From Planctomycetota bacterium (GTDB taxonomy: Bacteria; Planctomycetota; Phycisphaerae; Sedimentisphaerales; Anaerohalosphaeraceae), in NCBI GenBank assembly GCA_019456225.1, contig VRUI01000037.1:1-45943 (forward strand): DNA of 45,943 nucleotides. The letters run 5' to 3'. Below, piece by piece: positions 22,424 to 31,219 of the stretch (within the stretch, counting starts at the first letter, position 1; each line of letters begins with the position of its first letter). Both the position numbers and the translations under genes were made by a program. A model generated the notes under the pieces. That model did not search any database, was not told where the DNA came from, and saw only the letters and a list, made by a program, of their open reading frames with translations.

Positions 22424-22476
22424 GAAGATGGTGTTAATGTGAAACTGGACAATTATTGTATTATAAGGAGCGTGTT

Positions 22477-23442
22477 ATGTCGCAAAAAATGCTTGTTGCT
22501 TTAACTGTTGTATCTTTGACTATAGTAATGTTTTTCGCTGGTTGTGGGACTGAACTTGCAATAAAGTTCAATCCGGATGACATTTCTACATACAAAGTCG
22601 GTTATCAGACGAAACAGTCTGTTATACTGGATATGGCTGCAGATACAAAAACCGGAGATCAATATACCTCTAAAAATGTAGATGTTACGTTTACCCAGGA
22701 GATCCAAAGCATAAACGATGATTTAACTGCTCTGGCTAAGATCACAATAATGGATATAATGTTCAATACTAAGGATAACAAAGGAGCGAGTTTTAGTTTC
22801 GACAGCCGCAAGGATGAGGACAGAAAAAGGCCGTTAAATGCCATTATAGGCAAGAGCTACACGATCAATATCTCCACAGACGGAAGGGTTACCCTGGCAG
22901 ATGCTACGGATATTCGCAAAGTTAGAGTTTCCGGTACCACCGAGAGGAGAGTTGCCGAAAGTTTACTCACTGAAGCCGAGATAATCAAACGTCATGAAAT
23001 TCATCTTCCGAATAAAGAAATTTCGACGATCAGCAGGGGCAGAGGCTGGAGCAAGGTCGTCTGGTCGCATCCGAAGGTCATGGCTGTAAAGTCTTTCGAG
23101 AAGAATTATGTCCTCAAAAGCATTACTGATGATGGTATCGCTAACGTGACGATGACAGCTTATGAAACCGACAAGATCGCAGATGGACAGCCGCCTAAGC
23201 CCGGCTTGTTTGCGTTATTGGCCAAGTCGTTCGACAGCCAGGAAAAGTATACCGGACAAATGCAGATAGACCTCGAAAGCGGTAAAGTTGTCAAATGGAG
23301 TGAAACGTGTGATGCTGCCTATATTATTACACAAGAAGACCTTAGCAAAAGCTTCAATAAAGGCTCTGGAAAGAGCAAGGATGATTCTGCTTCGTTGAAG
23401 ATGTCGCTGCTCCATACGATAAGCTTAGAAAAGCTGGACTGA
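22477..23442 (+). CDS. Lipoprotein of unknown function (paralogue 1)
   Basis: A 321-residue predicted lipoprotein: MSQKM start, hydrophobic segment and lipobox FFAGC. ATG 22477 follows AAGGAG at 6-base spacing and is preferred over an in-frame start at 22456. The mature domain is beta-rich with no catalytic motif. It shares a layout with the next gene: a YKVGYQT-type strand after the lipobox, a GKSYTINISTDGRVTLAD block in the middle, and a late MQIDLESGKVVKW segment. The pair resembles the uncharacterised envelope lipoproteins common in planctomycetes (DUF6263-like is possible). The substrate or partner is unknown. Confidence 0.6.
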   Translation: MSQKMLVALTVVSLTIVMFFAGCGTELAIKFNPDDISTYKVGYQTKQSVILDMAADTKTGDQYTSKNVDVTFTQEIQSINDDLTALAKITIMDIMFNTKDNKGASFSFDSRKDEDRKRPLNAIIGKSYTINISTDGRVTLADATDIRKVRVSGTTERRVAESLLTEAEIIKRHEIHLPNKEISTISRGRGWSKVVWSHPKVMAVKSFEKNYVLKSITDDGIANVTMTAYETDKIADGQPPKPGLFALLAKSFDSQEKYTGQMQIDLESGKVVKWSETCDAAYIITQEDLSKSFNKGSGKSKDDSASLKMSLLHTISLEKLD

Positions 23443-23520
23443 CAGTTGAACTCAAACAGATCTGTCAGACGGGTTGAGGTTTTGTCGCAATTAACTTGAG
23501 AATGGATTTTCGGGAAGGAA

Positions 23521-24498
23521 ATGATCTTGCGTAAAGTTACTTTTTTGTTTTGCCTTGCATTTTTGCTGTCGCTGACGGCGTGTCAACCGGCCTCCAGAAA
23601 AGAAAAGGTTTGGCTGGTAGTGGACTTTCAGTCTCAGGTTCCCTTGAAATACAAACTGGTTTCTGAAAGAGATTCATTTGTGACTTTCGATGCCAAGTCG
23701 TCTAAGATGAAACCGGACAAGACCTACGAAAAGCTCGAGTTGGTTATTTCATATAAGCCCGTCGGAAAGCCGGATGTGTATGGTTTGACGACGATTGAGG
23801 CGACGTGCCATTCGGCGAAGGTGACCAGAAAAGCAAAAAATAAACCGTCCGGCAAAGATGCTGTCGAGGGACTGGCCGGCAGGAGCTATACTTTCAAAGT
23901 CTCTGCGACCGGAAAGATCACCGATTATTCCAATCTTGACAAACTGGCGGCTGAACTTGGGGCTAAGGCGATTAGTGAAACCAGTCAAGGCAGGATAAAA
24001 GCGCCTGATATGGTCGCGGATTTTGTTTGTTTGCAATGGCACTTGTGGGATTCTGTGGCAACGTCCGGCCAGACAACATCCGGGCTGAAACCGGGTGCGT
24101 CATGGACGACAAAACAGTTTATTCCGCTTCCCATTCCGATTGGTTTCGTCAGGAATACGACATATACGCTTGGCGATGTAGAGACAGGTGCCCAGGAACA
24201 AAAGAAAGTTGCTATCGACAGTACTTATACCACCGGAGAGGGCGGACTGGAGCACTGGCCGAAGATTTATACCGGTGGTTTCAGGATGAAGGGCATGTTT
24301 GGTTTTCTTCGAAGATTCAATGTTGCTTCTGTCGAGGGGGCGGGCAGGCAGATATTTGACGTCGAAAAAGGATTGCTGGAAAAAGATACTCAGCAGTACA
24401 AGGTTAAAATTTTGGCGAACATTTTTGGGAATCTTCCGGGTGTTTCGCCCGAGATAACCGTCGATCAGAAAATGACGGTTGAACTTCTTGACAATTAA
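23521..24498 (+). CDS. Lipoprotein of unknown function (paralogue 2)
   Basis: A 325-residue predicted lipoprotein with lipobox LTAC (Cys21). The mid-protein block AGRSYTFKVSATGKITDYSNLDKLA matches GKSYTINISTDGRVTLADATDIRKV of the upstream gene in position and pattern, and GRQIFDVEKGLLEKDTQQYKVKI parallels its late segment. The two thus appear to be diverged tandem paralogues. It is likely exported and anchored. A GGGAAGGA site precedes the ATG. Its stop overlaps an in-frame ATG of the next frame, so it is probably cotranscribed with the HIT gene. Function unknown. Confidence 0.6.
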   Translation: MILRKVTFLFCLAFLLSLTACQPASRKEKVWLVVDFQSQVPLKYKLVSERDSFVTFDAKSSKMKPDKTYEKLELVISYKPVGKPDVYGLTTIEATCHSAKVTRKAKNKPSGKDAVEGLAGRSYTFKVSATGKITDYSNLDKLAAELGAKAISETSQGRIKAPDMVADFVCLQWHLWDSVATSGQTTSGLKPGASWTTKQFIPLPIPIGFVRNTTYTLGDVETGAQEQKKVAIDSTYTTGEGGLEHWPKIYTGGFRMKGMFGFLRRFNVASVEGAGRQIFDVEKGLLEKDTQQYKVKILANIFGNLPGVSPEITVDQKMTVELLDN

Positions 24499-26213: not shown

Positions 26214-26257
26214 TTGACTATGTAGTTAAGTAGCGTATAGTATATATGTGAACTATA
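26214..26257 (+). promoter_or_regulatory. Promoter with overlapping MarR-type operator
   Basis: TTGACT (26214-26219), 16 bases, TATAGT (26236-26241) form a good sigma-70 promoter. The -10 is also the left half of a 22-bp inverted repeat, TATAGT-N10-ACTATA (26236-26257), placed where a bound repressor would block transcription. The next gene is a MarR regulator, so autorepression is likely. Confidence 0.6.
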
Positions 26258-26283
26258 TGTTTTTTTGGGAAAGGAAACCGAAA

Positions 26284-26760
26284 ATGTCACTCGAAAAAGA
26301 GCTAAGTCTTAATGTCCCCTTCACTCTCAAGAGTCATGAGTCGCTTTTGAATGTCTATTTTACCGCGACCTGCATCAAAAAGCAGGGGACAGAGTTTTTG
26401 AGTCAGTTTGACCTTACCGCTGTCCAGTTGAACCTGATGATGATGCTCGGTCACCAGGCAGGCGACACCGGGGGCTTAAGTCAGGCCAGGCTCAGCGAGA
26501 TGATGCTGGTCAACCGTGCCAATGTTACTTCCCTTGTTGACCGCATGGAAAAGGCCGGGTTTGTAATTCGTACCGCCGCCGAAGGTGACAGGCGGTATAA
26601 TATTATCAAACTGACCAGAAAGGGTAAGAATTTGCTTAAAAAAGTGGAACCTCTTTACGGCAAAGAGGTTCAAAGAATTATGTCGCCGCTAAACGAACGC
26701 GAGCAGAAGAAATTAGTGAATATGCTTGAAAGGGTAAGAGAGAATATGAAAAATTCTTGA
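26284..26760 (+). CDS. MarR-family transcriptional regulator
   Basis: A 158-residue winged-helix regulator, cytoplasmic and dimeric by family. The DNA-binding core reads LSQARLSEMMLVNRANVTSLVDRMEKAGFV then GDRRYNIIKLTRKGKNLLKK, the classic recognition helix and wing with the DRR motif. The dimerisation helices flank it. ATG 26284 follows GGAAAGGA and is preferred to an upstream ATG at 26248, which would fall inside the operator. It begins a plus-strand series of two alpha/beta hydrolases, an SGNH hydrolase and an Lnt-like acyltransferase, which it may control. The ligand is unknown; MarR proteins often sense aromatics, lipids or oxidants. Confidence 0.88.
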   Translation: MSLEKELSLNVPFTLKSHESLLNVYFTATCIKKQGTEFLSQFDLTAVQLNLMMMLGHQAGDTGGLSQARLSEMMLVNRANVTSLVDRMEKAGFVIRTAAEGDRRYNIIKLTRKGKNLLKKVEPLYGKEVQRIMSPLNEREQKKLVNMLERVRENMKNS

Positions 26761-26787
26761 AAGTACTCCTGAAAAGGACGGTGAAAA

Positions 26788-27615
26788 ATGCGAAAAAGTA
26801 AGATCAAAATTAATTCAGTCAGGGGGTTGTTGAGAAAGGGGCTGGTTTTGCGGCTGGCTTTGATGCTGTTATATGTTCCGTTTGCGCAGGCGATGATCTT
26901 TTCTCCGCCGCCGGCCAGTTACCTGGACGGGCCGGGGATCATTAAGATCGAAGTTGGCAATGGTGAGGCCATCCGCGGGCGTTACCTGTTAAATCCGGAC
27001 GCCGAGTTTACTATTCTTTACAACCATGGCAATAACGAGGATATCGGGATGAACATCCGCTGGCTGCAGCGTTTCCGCGAGAGGGGTTTTTCCGTGCTTA
27101 CTTATGATTATCGCGGATTCGGGCTTAGTAAGGGAAAGTCGACCGAGAAGAATACCTATCGTGACGCCCAGGCCGCTTATGATTATCTTGTCAAAAAAAG
27201 GAACGTTCTGCCGGCGAAGATAATCGTTATGGGCAGATCGCTCGGCGGCGGTGTCGCTGTTGAACTGGCAAGCAGAAAACCCGTAGCCGGCCTGATAATG
27301 CAAAGCACCTTTATTTCTGTCAATCGTGTTGTCGCCGGCGGACAGGTTGTCCCGTTCGACAAGTACAAGAGTATCTCAAAGATCGGCAGGGTAAAATGCC
27401 CGACTCTGGTTATCCACGGGACCGCCGATTCGCTGGTGAAATTCTGGCATGGTGAAAAGCTCTACGAAGCTGCGAAACAGCCAAAAGGGTACTTGTGGGT
27501 TAAAGGCGCAGACCACGAAGACGATATTGCCGCGATCGCCGGAGCGAAATACTGGCAGGCAATAGACAGCCTTATCGATAAGATCAAAAAAGGCGGCAAA
27601 TATACGAAAAAATGA
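26788..27615 (+). CDS. Alpha/beta hydrolase, membrane-anchored or exported
   Basis: A 275-residue serine hydrolase of the ABHD13/17-like type. A hydrophobic segment (LVLRLALMLLYVPFAQA, residues 19-35) suggests export or anchoring. The oxyanion region is ILYNHGNNEDIG. The triad is S151 in MGRSLGGG, D214 in HGTADSLV and H243 in GADHEDD, all spaced as expected. FSVLTYDYRGFGLSKG is the family block before the nucleophile. It starts 27 bases after the MarR gene with AAAAGGA, so it belongs to the same unit. The next gene encodes a paralogue. The substrate is unknown; an ester or thioester of an acyl chain is plausible. Confidence 0.82.
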   Translation: MRKSKIKINSVRGLLRKGLVLRLALMLLYVPFAQAMIFSPPPASYLDGPGIIKIEVGNGEAIRGRYLLNPDAEFTILYNHGNNEDIGMNIRWLQRFRERGFSVLTYDYRGFGLSKGKSTEKNTYRDAQAAYDYLVKKRNVLPAKIIVMGRSLGGGVAVELASRKPVAGLIMQSTFISVNRVVAGGQVVPFDKYKSISKIGRVKCPTLVIHGTADSLVKFWHGEKLYEAAKQPKGYLWVKGADHEDDIAAIAGAKYWQAIDSLIDKIKKGGKYTKK

Positions 27616-27664
27616 TCCGGATTGACAAACAAGTCAGCCTAAGATGTCGTATTAAGGATAGCAT

Positions 27665-28501
27665 ATGCGAAAAGAGACTCTCAAAAAAATCTTCATCGGT
27701 AAATTGAGCTTTAAAAGGCTCGTGCGATCTGTCGTGTTCATTTATCTTTCCTGCGTACTCATCGGCTGCACGCTTTCCGATCGCATGATTTTTATCCCGC
27801 CTGCTCCGAGCTATTCTTTCGAGCCGAAAATGGTCATGATCGAGACACCCTCCGGCGAAAAGATATGCGCCTACTACTTTAAAAATTCCAAGGCCCGGTA
27901 TACTCTTCTCTACAGTCACGGCAATGCCGAAGACATCGGGCAAAACCGCTTCGTCTTCGAGCGTTTTGTCAACCAGGGTTTCTCTATTTTGGCCTATGAC
28001 TACCGCGGCTATGGGCTAAGCGAGGGCAAGCCGTCGGCGAAAAACGCCTACGAAGACGCCGCCGCCGCATACGCCTATCTAACCGAAGTCGCCGGTGTAC
28101 CTGCAAATAAGATCATCCCATACGGCAGGTCAGTCGGCGGGTCGATGGCTGTCGATATCGCCGCCAAAAAACCGGTCGCCGGACTGATCCTCCAGAACGC
28201 CTTCACATCGGCATATCGTGTCCTTACGCGTATACCGATCCTGCCGTTCGATAAATTAAATAATATGAGCAAGATAAAAAAAATAAACTGCCCTGTCCTG
28301 ATAATGCACGGATCCAAAGACAGGATCATAAAACCATGGCACAGCAGGGCACTTTTCAAGGCCGCCAAAGAGCCGAAGTCATACCTGCTGGTAGAAAATA
28401 TCGGCCACAATGACGACATGGCATCGGCGGCATGGAAAGAATACTGGCAGAAAATCGAAAGCTTTATGGAAGAAGTTAGAAACGCAGACTCAGGGCTATA
28501 A
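27665..28501 (+). CDS. Alpha/beta hydrolase lipoprotein (tandem paralogue)
   Basis: A 278-residue paralogue of the preceding hydrolase. It carries a lipobox (VLIGC, Cys35), so it is probably lipid-anchored outside the cytoplasm. The triad is S156 in YGRSVGGS, D219 in HGSKDRII and H248 in NIGHNDD. The blocks LLYSHGNAEDIG and ILAYDYRGYGLSEGKPSAKNAYEDA match the neighbour nearly position for position. The start codon follows AAGGA. The duplicate with a different anchor suggests the two enzymes act at different membrane faces or on related substrates. A regulator target is inferred from position only. Confidence 0.85.
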   Translation: MRKETLKKIFIGKLSFKRLVRSVVFIYLSCVLIGCTLSDRMIFIPPAPSYSFEPKMVMIETPSGEKICAYYFKNSKARYTLLYSHGNAEDIGQNRFVFERFVNQGFSILAYDYRGYGLSEGKPSAKNAYEDAAAAYAYLTEVAGVPANKIIPYGRSVGGSMAVDIAAKKPVAGLILQNAFTSAYRVLTRIPILPFDKLNNMSKIKKINCPVLIMHGSKDRIIKPWHSRALFKAAKEPKSYLLVENIGHNDDMASAAWKEYWQKIESFMEEVRNADSGL

Positions 28502-28575
28502 ACGTTGAATCTTTTTTTGTTGAAATAGTTCATATGTAAACAGTTCATAGGTTAACATTACGAAAGGAGTCTATT

Positions 28576-29523
28576 ATGGCTAAGATGCGATGGTATTTGT
28601 TCAGGTGGAAGATGATGCTTCTGGGGTTTGTTTTGATCGTAATGGCGACCGGTTATGCCGCGTGGAGAATTCACCTTGTTACACGGGTTCTGCCTATGGG
28701 CACCGGTCCTGCCGGCCCTGTTATCAGTAGTGAGGTTTTTCAGGAAGAGTGGTCCGATCAGAAATTTGTGATGGTTGGGGTTGGTGACAGCATTACTCGC
28801 GGTCTGGGTGCTTCAAAGAGGCATTCTCATTTTCAGCTTCTCCAGCAAAACGATGACGCTCAATATCCTGATATGAAAGGATGTGACCTGTCGACTGTTA
28901 TACCAAAATTGCAGTCAAAGAACTGGGCTCGGGATTTCACGGTTTCCCAGGAGCACATCGACGATCAATTTCCGCTGGTGGAAGTCTACCCGCCTGATGT
29001 CCATGGCATCGTCGTTGTGACTTCCGGTGGAAACGACCTGATACACGATTACGGCCAAAGTAAGCCCGTCGACGGGGCAATGTACGGCTGTAGCTATAAG
29101 CAGGCCACCGTCTGGACGGAAAACATTAAGCGGCGGGTGACAACACTTGTAGAAGGGCTTATGGAGAAATTTCCGGGCGGCTGCGATATCTTCCTTGCCA
29201 ATATTTTCGACCCCACTGACGGGGTAAGCGACCCGCAAGCTATAGGTCTGCCGCGATGGCCAGCCGCCTCGAAAATAGTACGCCTCACTAACCGCAAGAT
29301 CGCTGAGATATGCAGCCGATACGAAAACGTTCATCTGGTCGATATTCACACGGAATTTCTTGGCCATGGAATCCACTGCACAGAGAGATGGCGCAAGCAC
29401 TACCACAAGGAAGACCCGGGCCATTGGTACTATCATAACCTCGAAGACCCGAATCGCCGCGGATATGACGCCATAAGAAGGCTTTATCTAAAGGAAATTG
29501 TCAGTGTCTTTGCAGAAAAGTGA
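28576..29523 (+). CDS. SGNH/GDSL hydrolase, membrane-anchored
   Basis: A 315-residue lipase/esterase-like protein. One hydrophobic segment (MMLLGFVLIVMATGYAAW, about 13-30) anchors or exports it. The SGNH blocks are GVGDSITRGLGAS with nucleophile S72, the glycine block near VVTSGGNDLIHDYG (Asn of GGND), and a C-terminal block in DPNRRGYDAIRR, where the usual D-x-x-H appears altered. The DIHTEFLGHGIHC stretch could supply the histidine. It starts after AAAGGAG and lies 75 bases after the second alpha/beta hydrolase. It is probably a carbohydrate or lipid esterase. The exact C-terminal catalytic histidine is uncertain. Confidence 0.78.
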   Translation: MAKMRWYLFRWKMMLLGFVLIVMATGYAAWRIHLVTRVLPMGTGPAGPVISSEVFQEEWSDQKFVMVGVGDSITRGLGASKRHSHFQLLQQNDDAQYPDMKGCDLSTVIPKLQSKNWARDFTVSQEHIDDQFPLVEVYPPDVHGIVVVTSGGNDLIHDYGQSKPVDGAMYGCSYKQATVWTENIKRRVTTLVEGLMEKFPGGCDIFLANIFDPTDGVSDPQAIGLPRWPAASKIVRLTNRKIAEICSRYENVHLVDIHTEFLGHGIHCTERWRKHYHKEDPGHWYYHNLEDPNRRGYDAIRRLYLKEIVSVFAEK

Positions 29524-29581
29524 AAGGAGTGTTTCAGTAGTCAGCATGTAAACAGTAATTACATCTAGAAAGGAGACGGTC

Positions 29582-30997
29582 ATGTTTACGCCTAAGGAAA
29601 TTTGCTGCAGGGTTTGTGGGATTCTTAGCGGTCTTTTATTGGGTTTGCCCAATCTGTTTGGCGCACTTGCACCTGTCCAGTGTTTTGCGTTGCTGCCGGT
29701 TCTGGTGTGCGCCGCAAGGTGGAAATTGAGCCGCGGCGTTCTTATTACCGCCGGTACCTATATGGCTCTTGGATATACTTTGCCGCAGGTGATCGTTCTT
29801 CTTTTGCCGTTGCCGATAGTTGTCATTTTAATTCTGGATTATGTTATTGTAATGATGGTCCTTGTCCTGGCGGCAAGTAGTTTGCTAAGCAGGCCCACCG
29901 TTCTCAGGTGTTTTGTTTTCGCGGCATTGGTCGTCGTTCTTGACTGGGCTAATTTTACCGCGATACCCATCTGGGGGACGGCCCAGTCCATCGTTCGTCC
30001 CTGGTCCAGCTGCCGCCATTTGATCGCCTTTACCAGTGTTACCGGTATGGGCGGGATACTATTTCTGCTTGCATTTGTTCAGGCTGCCGCTGTCTGCATG
30101 ATCAATGCCGGGTGGATCAATAAGCCCATGCTAAAGGCCGTCTCTGTTACCCTCGCTGTCTTTGCCATAGTAAATGTCATCAGCTTAACCGGCAAGCCGG
30201 TCAATACTATCAAGGTCGCCGCGGTCGGCTGGAACGAGGCGGCTGTTGAGCGGTTTGGCGACCCTGAAAGCGGCGGCGGCTTCGAAAATCTCCTCGCCGC
30301 ACCTGTAAGATCCGCTGCCGCCCAAGGCGCAAAACTCGTCATTTCCCCGGAGATGGGCTTCTATGTTGACCAGTTCAACAGGTCTGTTTGGATAGAAATG
30401 GTGACAGCCCTTGCTTTGGCTAACAATGTCCATCTCGCCGTCGGTTATGCCGATGCACCGCGGAATGAAAATCGAATGCTGCTCGTAGACAATTCCGGCA
30501 GGGTGGTTGACGAGTATACAAAGAGATACCTCACCCCGTACGAAAATTTCAACAAGGGCGACGGTCAGCCCAGGTTCATCGATATTGGCGGCGTAAAGAT
30601 CGGTGCGATGATCTGCCATGACGACAATTACACGTCCATCTCCCGCAGATACGGCAGGGCGAAAGCGGGCCTTATCGCAGTTCCCACGCTCGACTGGAAG
30701 CAGATACGCTTTGCCCACATGCAAAATTGCATCCACCGGACGATAGAGTCCAGGTACGCCCTTGTTCGGGCCTCCTACGAGGGGATAAGTGCCGTGATCT
30801 CTGCCAGGGGCAAGGTCATCGCCAGCTATGACCACGTAACAGACGGCCACGGAATGATAATCGCAGACGTTCAAGTTTACGACCAGCGAACAGTATTCAG
30901 CATACTCGGTAACTGGTTTGTACTGGCAAGCGGGATTTTCGTCGCCGGATACATTATAAAATCCAAATGGTTGACAAAGCCTGAAAACGCGGTATGA
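29582..30997 (+). CDS. Lnt-like apolipoprotein N-acyltransferase / membrane CN-hydrolase
   Basis: A 471-residue protein with several N-terminal membrane helices (about residues 10-200) and a nitrilase-fold domain (residues 210-440). The Glu-Lys-Cys triad is visible: Glu in VISPEMGFY, Lys in EYTKRYLTPYENF, Cys in IGAMICHDDNY. This is the layout of apolipoprotein N-acyltransferase, which acylates lipoprotein N-termini. The ICHDD block departs from the usual IC-Y/F-E form, and the chain is shorter than E. coli Lnt (512), so it may be a diverged acyltransferase. A final helix anchors the C-terminus. It lies 58 bases after the SGNH hydrolase behind AAAGGAGA. Confidence 0.75.
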   Translation: MFTPKEICCRVCGILSGLLLGLPNLFGALAPVQCFALLPVLVCAARWKLSRGVLITAGTYMALGYTLPQVIVLLLPLPIVVILILDYVIVMMVLVLAASSLLSRPTVLRCFVFAALVVVLDWANFTAIPIWGTAQSIVRPWSSCRHLIAFTSVTGMGGILFLLAFVQAAAVCMINAGWINKPMLKAVSVTLAVFAIVNVISLTGKPVNTIKVAAVGWNEAAVERFGDPESGGGFENLLAAPVRSAAAQGAKLVISPEMGFYVDQFNRSVWIEMVTALALANNVHLAVGYADAPRNENRMLLVDNSGRVVDEYTKRYLTPYENFNKGDGQPRFIDIGGVKIGAMICHDDNYTSISRRYGRAKAGLIAVPTLDWKQIRFAHMQNCIHRTIESRYALVRASYEGISAVISARGKVIASYDHVTDGHGMIIADVQVYDQRTVFSILGNWFVLASGIFVAGYIIKSKWLTKPENAV

Positions 30998-31021
30998 TAG
31001 ACCGGCGTAAAGGAGATTATC

Positions 31022-31219
31022 ATGGCAAAACGAAAAACGCAGAAGATCGAAATTGGTCAAGGCGGAGAGTTTACTATCTGTCCGGAGTGTGGATATGCAG
31101 ATGGCTTTCATAGTGTTTTTGAGGGCTTAAACGCGTCGAAACCGGCAAAGTGGCTTTTGATATGCCCAAGATGCTCGTCAAAGTATGATATAGGCTTGAA
31201 ATATGATACACATAAATAA
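31022..31219 (+). CDS. Small zinc-ribbon protein
   Basis: A 65-residue protein with two CxxC pairs (CPECGYADGFHSVFEG and ICPRCSSKYDIG), forming a four-cysteine zinc ribbon. The tail overlaps the start of the ArfB gene by 17 bases, and a GGAG site precedes the ATG. There is no other domain. The tight overlap suggests coexpression with the ribosome-rescue factor. Function unknown. Confidence 0.65.
   Translation: MAKRKTQKIEIGQGGEFTICPECGYADGFHSVFEGLNASKPAKWLLICPRCSSKYDIGLKYDTHK

Follow-up and report, generated by a model that had tools for sequence, protein, structure and literature searches.

A five-gene block comprising a MarR-family regulator and four putative acyl enzymes of the cell envelope lies at positions 26214-30997 of contig VRUI01000037.1 (assembly GCA_019456225.1). 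The source is a Planctomycetota bacterium of the GTDB lineage Phycisphaerae; Sedimentisphaerales; Anaerohalosphaeraceae. The window, i.e. the whole stretch of DNA analyzed, covers positions 1-45,943 of this contig. Genomes and loci are labeled G and L, respectively, with G000 for the window's genome (4.45 Mb, 152 contigs). Close protein relatives belong to Planctomycetota, one of them labeled Sedimentisphaerales. All five genes are located on the plus strand, in the order MarR, two alpha/beta hydrolases, an SGNH hydrolase and LntL, a divergent transacylase resembling apolipoprotein N-acyltransferase (Lnt). A first-pass annotation made from the sequence alone had listed this content, order and strand, and positions of the open reading frames (ORFs) and Pfam matches bear it out. 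The intergenic gaps are 27, 49, 74 and 58 nt, in that order. A dGTPase gene (end 26125) flanks the block on one side, a small ORF followed by ArfB (31203) on the other.

The regulator (26284-26760, 158 amino acids) matches Pfam MarR and MarR_2 (E 4e-12 for the latter). Its winged-helix domain scored 46.5 bits for PF12802 and 43.4 bits for PF01047, each above the cut-off. Translation most likely starts at ATG 26284 rather than at GTG 26248, because the latter would fall on the transcription start. Alpha/beta hydrolase 1 (26788-27615; Hydrolase_4, 9e-21) has a GRSLG nucleophile elbow by eye and is probably secreted. Alpha/beta hydrolase 2 (27665-28501; Hydrolase_4, 1e-20) shows GRSVG and an LIGC lipobox by eye and is a predicted lipoprotein. 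The lipobox cysteine is lost in hydrolase 1, in agreement with the earlier proposal of one lipid-anchored enzyme, and at 45% identity the two are paralogues, as had been suggested. The SGNH hydrolase (28576-29523; Lipase_GDSL_2, 2e-11) carries an N-terminal membrane anchor, the motifs GDS(I/V)T and GGND, and a GDSL-esterase fold. LntL (29582-30997) matches CN_hydrolase (7e-16) and possesses the catalytic triad and the fold of Lnt.

A sigma-70-like promoter precedes marR (26214-26241, plus strand; TTGACT, 16-nt spacer, TATAGT; 10/12 matches). Operator 1 (26236-26257, no strand assigned) is the 22-bp palindrome TATAGTATATATGTGAACTATA, which starts at the -10 element and overlaps the transcription start. 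It scored 30.9 bits with a position weight matrix, for which it was one of 12 training sites. The 22-mer pattern, with up to three mismatches, matched once in the window against 0.01 matches expected. The self-operator claimed for MarR is thereby supported, and a predicted palindromic site in the own promoter is present as in MarR regulators. Operator 2 (28524-28560, likewise strandless) was absent from the first-pass annotation. Its two palindromes overlap, with a spacing of 15 bp, and are located immediately ahead of the SGNH ribosome-binding site; both lie outside the training set (24.6 and 15.1 bits). Since this operator precedes SGNH-LntL, the block probably comprises two units that share a regulator. 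The second operator led to rejection of one five-gene operon with a single promoter. Separate promoters had been named as an observation that would speak against a common set; two control points indeed exist, but the same operator occurs at both. Terminator-like sites (six in the scan, about the level of shuffled sequence) gave no convincing separation of genes in the block, which closes with a strong promoter-like site at 30971-30998 (11/12 matches).

The palindrome at the -10 element of the marR promoter is also found in relatives from other genera, most of which show, by eye, a TTGAC element at a similar distance before it. The matrix, which was symmetrized, was built on 12 sites lying upstream of MarR in the family of the window. 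Markov shuffles of 420 kb of loci yielded no site of at least 15 bits, and 0.3 sites per scan at 14 bits. In the real loci, however, sites scoring 19-33 bits were also present ahead of SGNH, of LntL or of whichever gene comes first after MarR. Each of the family's 16 MarR-carrying genomes has such a second site, which opposes the suspicion that MarR regulates only itself. It was also detected in G031 and G023, in neither of which MarR was found. G009 has MarR without a site of at least 12 bits upstream of it. No strong site was present in loci with LntL, an alpha/beta hydrolase or SGNH and no MarR: none reached 11 bits in the LntL-only loci L017, L018, L019, L091, L101, L102 and L111, the alpha/beta hydrolase-only loci L106-L109, or the SGNH-only loci L113 and L114. 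Locus L115 has sites of 14 and 11.3 bits. In G023 (84% complete), a double operator (L150:373-409) precedes an ORF of 210 amino acids that belongs to no known family and lies close to the LntL block.

The matrix was then applied to 36 MarR loci from other families, none of them in the training set (37 were fetched; G038 was left out). A site of at least 15 bits lies within 150 nt upstream of MarR in 30/36 loci, with about 1.7 sites expected in all 445 kb. Among the exceptions, G055 offers only 14 bases of upstream sequence, G097, G155 and G041 have a strong site farther upstream, G114 (214 bases upstream) has only a downstream site, and G145 has none. Downstream, 15/36 of these loci have a site no more than 1 kb from MarR. 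In G000 the strict 16-mer AGTWHAYATRTDWACW is found at two places, and in the single-contig genome G006 likewise at two, all inside the block. It is absent from nine MarR-less genomes of the window's family; G013 and G011 contain MarR and no strict match. Because both places in the window's genome fall in the block, the predicted regulon is local, at least in this family. Operator-like sites outside the block were also examined. The 16-mer at G004:C387 is probably a chance match, and that at G014:C5 reached just 11.5 bits. A site of 21.3 bits in G012:C78 (L147:4102-4123), away from MarR and 168 nt upstream of a gene pair for a 2-hydroxyacyl-CoA-dehydratase-like protein and an activase, may be a further target.

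MarR orthologues were found in 53/161 genomes of the order. In a phylum sample of 392 genomes, nothing outside the order exceeded 128 bits against MarR, and matching members of the order scored at least 248 bits, except G038 (89.8 bits). The larger order set contains a partial match down to 153 bits. Linkage was counted in 50 of the 53 MarR loci, leaving out G004 and G019 (MarR at a contig edge) and G038 (weak match). An acyl-lipid enzyme is encoded directly downstream of MarR in 37/50 loci, and four loci run into a contig edge. The genes upstream of MarR in these 50 loci include no member of the acyl-lipid clusters listed. Recurrent downstream genes encode LntL (15 loci), SGNH (nine), alpha/beta hydrolases (eight, plus three of the window type) and LplT-PlsC-Aas or its AMP-ligase (acyl-ligase) part (eight). 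Within the window's family, MarR is associated with LntL (14/16 vs. 7/23, p 0.0008) and with SGNH (11/15 vs. 2/20, p 0.0002), the genomes not being independent. Conservation of the neighborhood, the main check proposed with the first-pass annotation, is thus borne out: MarR, SGNH and LntL recur in the family with other flanking genes, and outside this family MarR accompanies acyl-lipid enzymes elsewhere in the order, a comparison that covered all 37 fetched loci.

Proteins about 1,500 amino acids long, with BcrAD/BadFG and DUF2229 domains, are encoded downstream of MarR in 15/50 loci, together with LntL in G102, G044 and G104. Presumably they are plasmalogen-synthase-like (PlsA-like); the likeness to PlsA/PlsR is drawn from domain make-up. 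Queried with one of them, the window's genome yielded only activase-size proteins of about 300 amino acids, and the window differs from these loci in lacking the large protein. PlsA/PlsR convert ester to vinyl-ether lipids (PMC9702350), and modified PlsA proteins are proposed as ether-lipid makers (PMC8788747).

G014 encodes MarR-SGNH-LntL and, farther down, Lgt (136.6 bits, cut-off 118.9), LplT-PlsC-Aas (1364.9 bits, cut-off 1221) and a PlsC-type acyltransferase. The order in G017 is MarR-PlsY-(FeeM/aminotransferase)-LntL. Lgt, LplT-PlsC-Aas, PlsY and PlsA-like genes in the relatives strengthen the original suggestion of envelope lipid or lipoprotein remodeling. The insert between MarR and LntL in G017 (L090:2657-4919) holds, besides PlsY, a FeeM-like N-acyltransferase fused to a PhnW-like aminotransferase; an acylated aminophosphonate or amino-acid lipid pathway is possible. 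G097, G146 and G087 carry a divergent pair of phosphatidylserine synthase and decarboxylase genes upstream (annotated in G087). The Lgt of L088 (5158-7167) is a fusion, and its C-terminal part groups with lipase-like proteins encoded at other MarR loci. Four loci (L093:8952-9971, L094:10805-11923, L097:578-1636, L099:5069-6112) encode a membrane protein, which gave no Pfam match in the three copies scanned. It directly follows MarR in L094, L097 and L099 and adjoins SGNH without MarR in L093.

LntL scored 80.6 bits with the Lnt profile TIGR00546, below the cut-off of 132.9. A canonical Lnt is encoded elsewhere in the window's genome (G000:C26, 224.5 bits), which rules out LntL as the only Lnt and makes it a divergent second copy. 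Canonical Lnt exceeds the cut-off in 36/39 genomes of the family. E257, K314 and C345 are invariant in all 17 LntL sequences, in register with canonical Lnt. The LntL model (predicted local distance difference test score, pLDDT, 91.6) has Lnt as best structure matches (Z 31-33 over 437-452 residues), and Foldseek gave template modeling (TM) scores of 0.70-0.76 against Lnt. The modeled architecture likewise corresponds to that of Lnt, with an N-terminal helical membrane domain and a periplasmic CN-hydrolase domain.

The SGNH sequences (n = 16, including the window copy) have an N-terminal anchor in most cases, and the GDS(I/V)T and GGND blocks in all. Their tail is highly conserved, with an invariant EDP..RG where the DxxH block is expected; the model is weak at 275-292. 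Its overall pLDDT was 77, and the matches were GDSL esterases (best Z 18.5). A kinship to acyloxyacyl hydrolase (Foldseek E about 1e-4) was set aside, this enzyme not being among the 50 matches listed in a second structure comparison. The search for a PDB sequence counterpart returned weak GDSL matches only. Against a model for acyl-homoserine lactonases, alpha/beta hydrolase 1 gave a weak match (60.9 of 400 bits), and small toxic molecules are frequent ligands of MarR regulators. Both points would fit a defense or detoxification set. The ligand of MarR would then be a toxic ester, a lactone or a membrane-active lipid, which the hydrolases destroy while LntL repairs the membrane. The block, however, encodes no efflux-type transporter, and related gene runs hold biosynthetic lipid enzymes (PlsY, Lgt, Aas, PlsA-like) instead of detoxifying ones. 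This explanation is considered improbable.

The interpretation regarded as probable is a MarR-repressed, locally regulated cassette for remodeling of envelope acyl chains, combining acyl transfer from phospholipids with lysophospholipid clean-up. LntL, LplT-PlsC-Aas, PlsC and lipases beside one MarR suggest a module for transacylation and lysolipid handling, with hydrolases in the window's version. The regulator, the operator and the linkage are well supported; repression, ligand, acceptor and all catalysis we infer. Without a signal, MarR dimers would occupy operator 1 over the -10 element and the start of their own promoter. Both alpha/beta hydrolases, presumably read through from the marR promoter, would be shut off as well, and MarR on operator 2 would silence SGNH-LntL. 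MarR would come off upon binding a ligand, most likely one that resembles a fatty acid or a lysolipid. LntL could then take an acyl chain from a membrane phospholipid via its Glu-Lys-Cys triad, leaving a lysophospholipid, and pass the chain to an amine acceptor distinct from what the housekeeping Lnt acylates. The SGNH enzyme and both alpha/beta hydrolases, each predicted outside the cytoplasm, would remove the lysophospholipid or the transferred chains; in relatives, LplT-PlsC-Aas may fill that lysolipid step. The cycle is described in Escherichia coli (PMC4666226): the product remaining after Lnt action is 2-acyl-glycerophosphoethanolamine; LplT brings it into the cell, and Aas re-acylates it. 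The cycle thus recycles lysolipid made by Lnt, and LplT-PlsC-Aas fusions are located downstream of the same MarR in relatives. It is missing from the window's block, where the hydrolases may replace it.

Several observations weigh against this interpretation. Tyr-Glu after the catalytic cysteine is essential in Lnt. This dipeptide and a glutamate at Lys+8 (Glu343 in E. coli) served as the Lnt criterion. All 17 LntL sequences read [IV]C[QH]DDN at the catalytic cysteine, in the forms IC[QH]DDN and VCHDDN, whereas seven of seven canonical copies read ICYE; the glutamate after the catalytic lysine is at Lys+7 in 17/17 LntL and at Lys+8 in 7/7 canonical copies. Because these residues depart from Lnt, LntL could be an amidase. 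SGNH shows no clear DxxH block, in which the catalytic histidine would be expected. No acyl-lipid cluster was present in the parsed downstream run of 9/50 MarR loci, although in one of them, G011, SGNH and LntL appear farther downstream. Beside MarR, LntL stands alone in G006, and both LntL and SGNH are missing in G005; therefore, no single enzyme is indispensable. Finally, the strict 16-mer occurs at additional places across 35 MarR-carrying genomes of other families and in 6/30 MarR-less genomes of other families. Given these noisy matches, only for the family of the window can the site firmly be called confined to the locus.

The full-length Lnt fold and the triad, set against the score below the cut-off and the changed motifs, lead to the conclusion that LntL is, as modeled, an Lnt-type transacylase and not an Lnt equivalog. 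It shares the membrane and CN-hydrolase domains with Lnt and differs by being shorter, by the altered cysteine-region motif and post-lysine glutamate, as a second copy, and by having its own regulator. LntL might alternatively be a regulated lipoprotein N-acyltransferase, carrying out the housekeeping reaction but restricted to some lipoproteins or to a particular condition, with the lipases as side partners. The Lnt fold over its whole length (Z 31-33), the invariant E-K-C triad, the G014 gene run joining Lgt with LntL, Aas and PlsC, and the lipoprotein predicted in the block itself are consistent with this. A precedent exists in enteric bacteria, where AatD is a regulated second Lnt: like LntL, it is an extra Lnt-like copy in a regulated operon, apart from the housekeeping enzyme (PMC7478709). 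The gene for AatD accompanies those of the Aat transporter and is controlled by AggR, a regulator of the AraC type, and the enzyme acylates Aap, whereas LntL occurs with MarR and lipases and without such a transporter. The alternative is nevertheless rated as unlikely, given the Lnt score under the cut-off, the ICYE motif and PFGE glutamate changed in all 17 LntL, and the canonical Lnt already present above the cut-off in 36/39 genomes.

The variable gene content among relatives and the nine loci with none of the acyl-lipid clusters would also suit a real regulator followed by an incidental, fast-changing set of genes without common pathway. Acyl-lipid clusters are, however, located downstream in 37/50 loci and never upstream, and the operators move with the first enzyme gene. 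An incidental set is thus improbable, and the envelope-remodeling cassette is retained as the preferred interpretation.

A broader version is put forward tentatively. An order-specific, lipid-sensing MarR would govern a modular membrane-remodeling regulon, in which a second Lnt acylates a non-lipoprotein target, be it an amino lipid, secreted protein or peptide. Depending on the lineage, this enzyme would be coupled to the recycling of lysolipids (Aas/LplT), to their hydrolysis (SGNH, alpha/beta hydrolases) or to ester-to-ether conversion (PlsA-like). A comparable MarR protein is FabT, for which palindromes occur in the promoter of its own gene and in those of lipid genes (PMC9083066). It regulates fab genes, and acyl-AcpB enhances its DNA binding. 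The window's MarR reached only 36.7 bits with the FabT model NF050133 (cut-off 200) and adjoins envelope acyl enzymes. The literature searched contained no published account of a MarR-controlled Lnt copy or of the cassette, and no paper joining the truncated term Sedimentisphaer and MarR; little seems to have been written on how planctomycetes control the lipid composition of their envelope. One conserved operator defines the regulon by sequence and ties an Lnt-like copy to lysolipid recycling and plasmalogen-synthase-like proteins. The locus supplies direct candidates for what Lnt paralogues acylate and for what signals membrane remodeling.

Two further features of the window lie outside the block. 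A short ORF past LntL (31023-31205) contains paired cysteine motifs, zinc-ribbon-like by eye, and is preceded by the promoter-like site at 30971-30998. Two tandem predicted lipoproteins with weak or barely-above-cut-off DUF6263 matches are encoded at 22456-24498. The neighborhood of ilvD, the DUF6263 pair and HIT recurs in G035 (L115).

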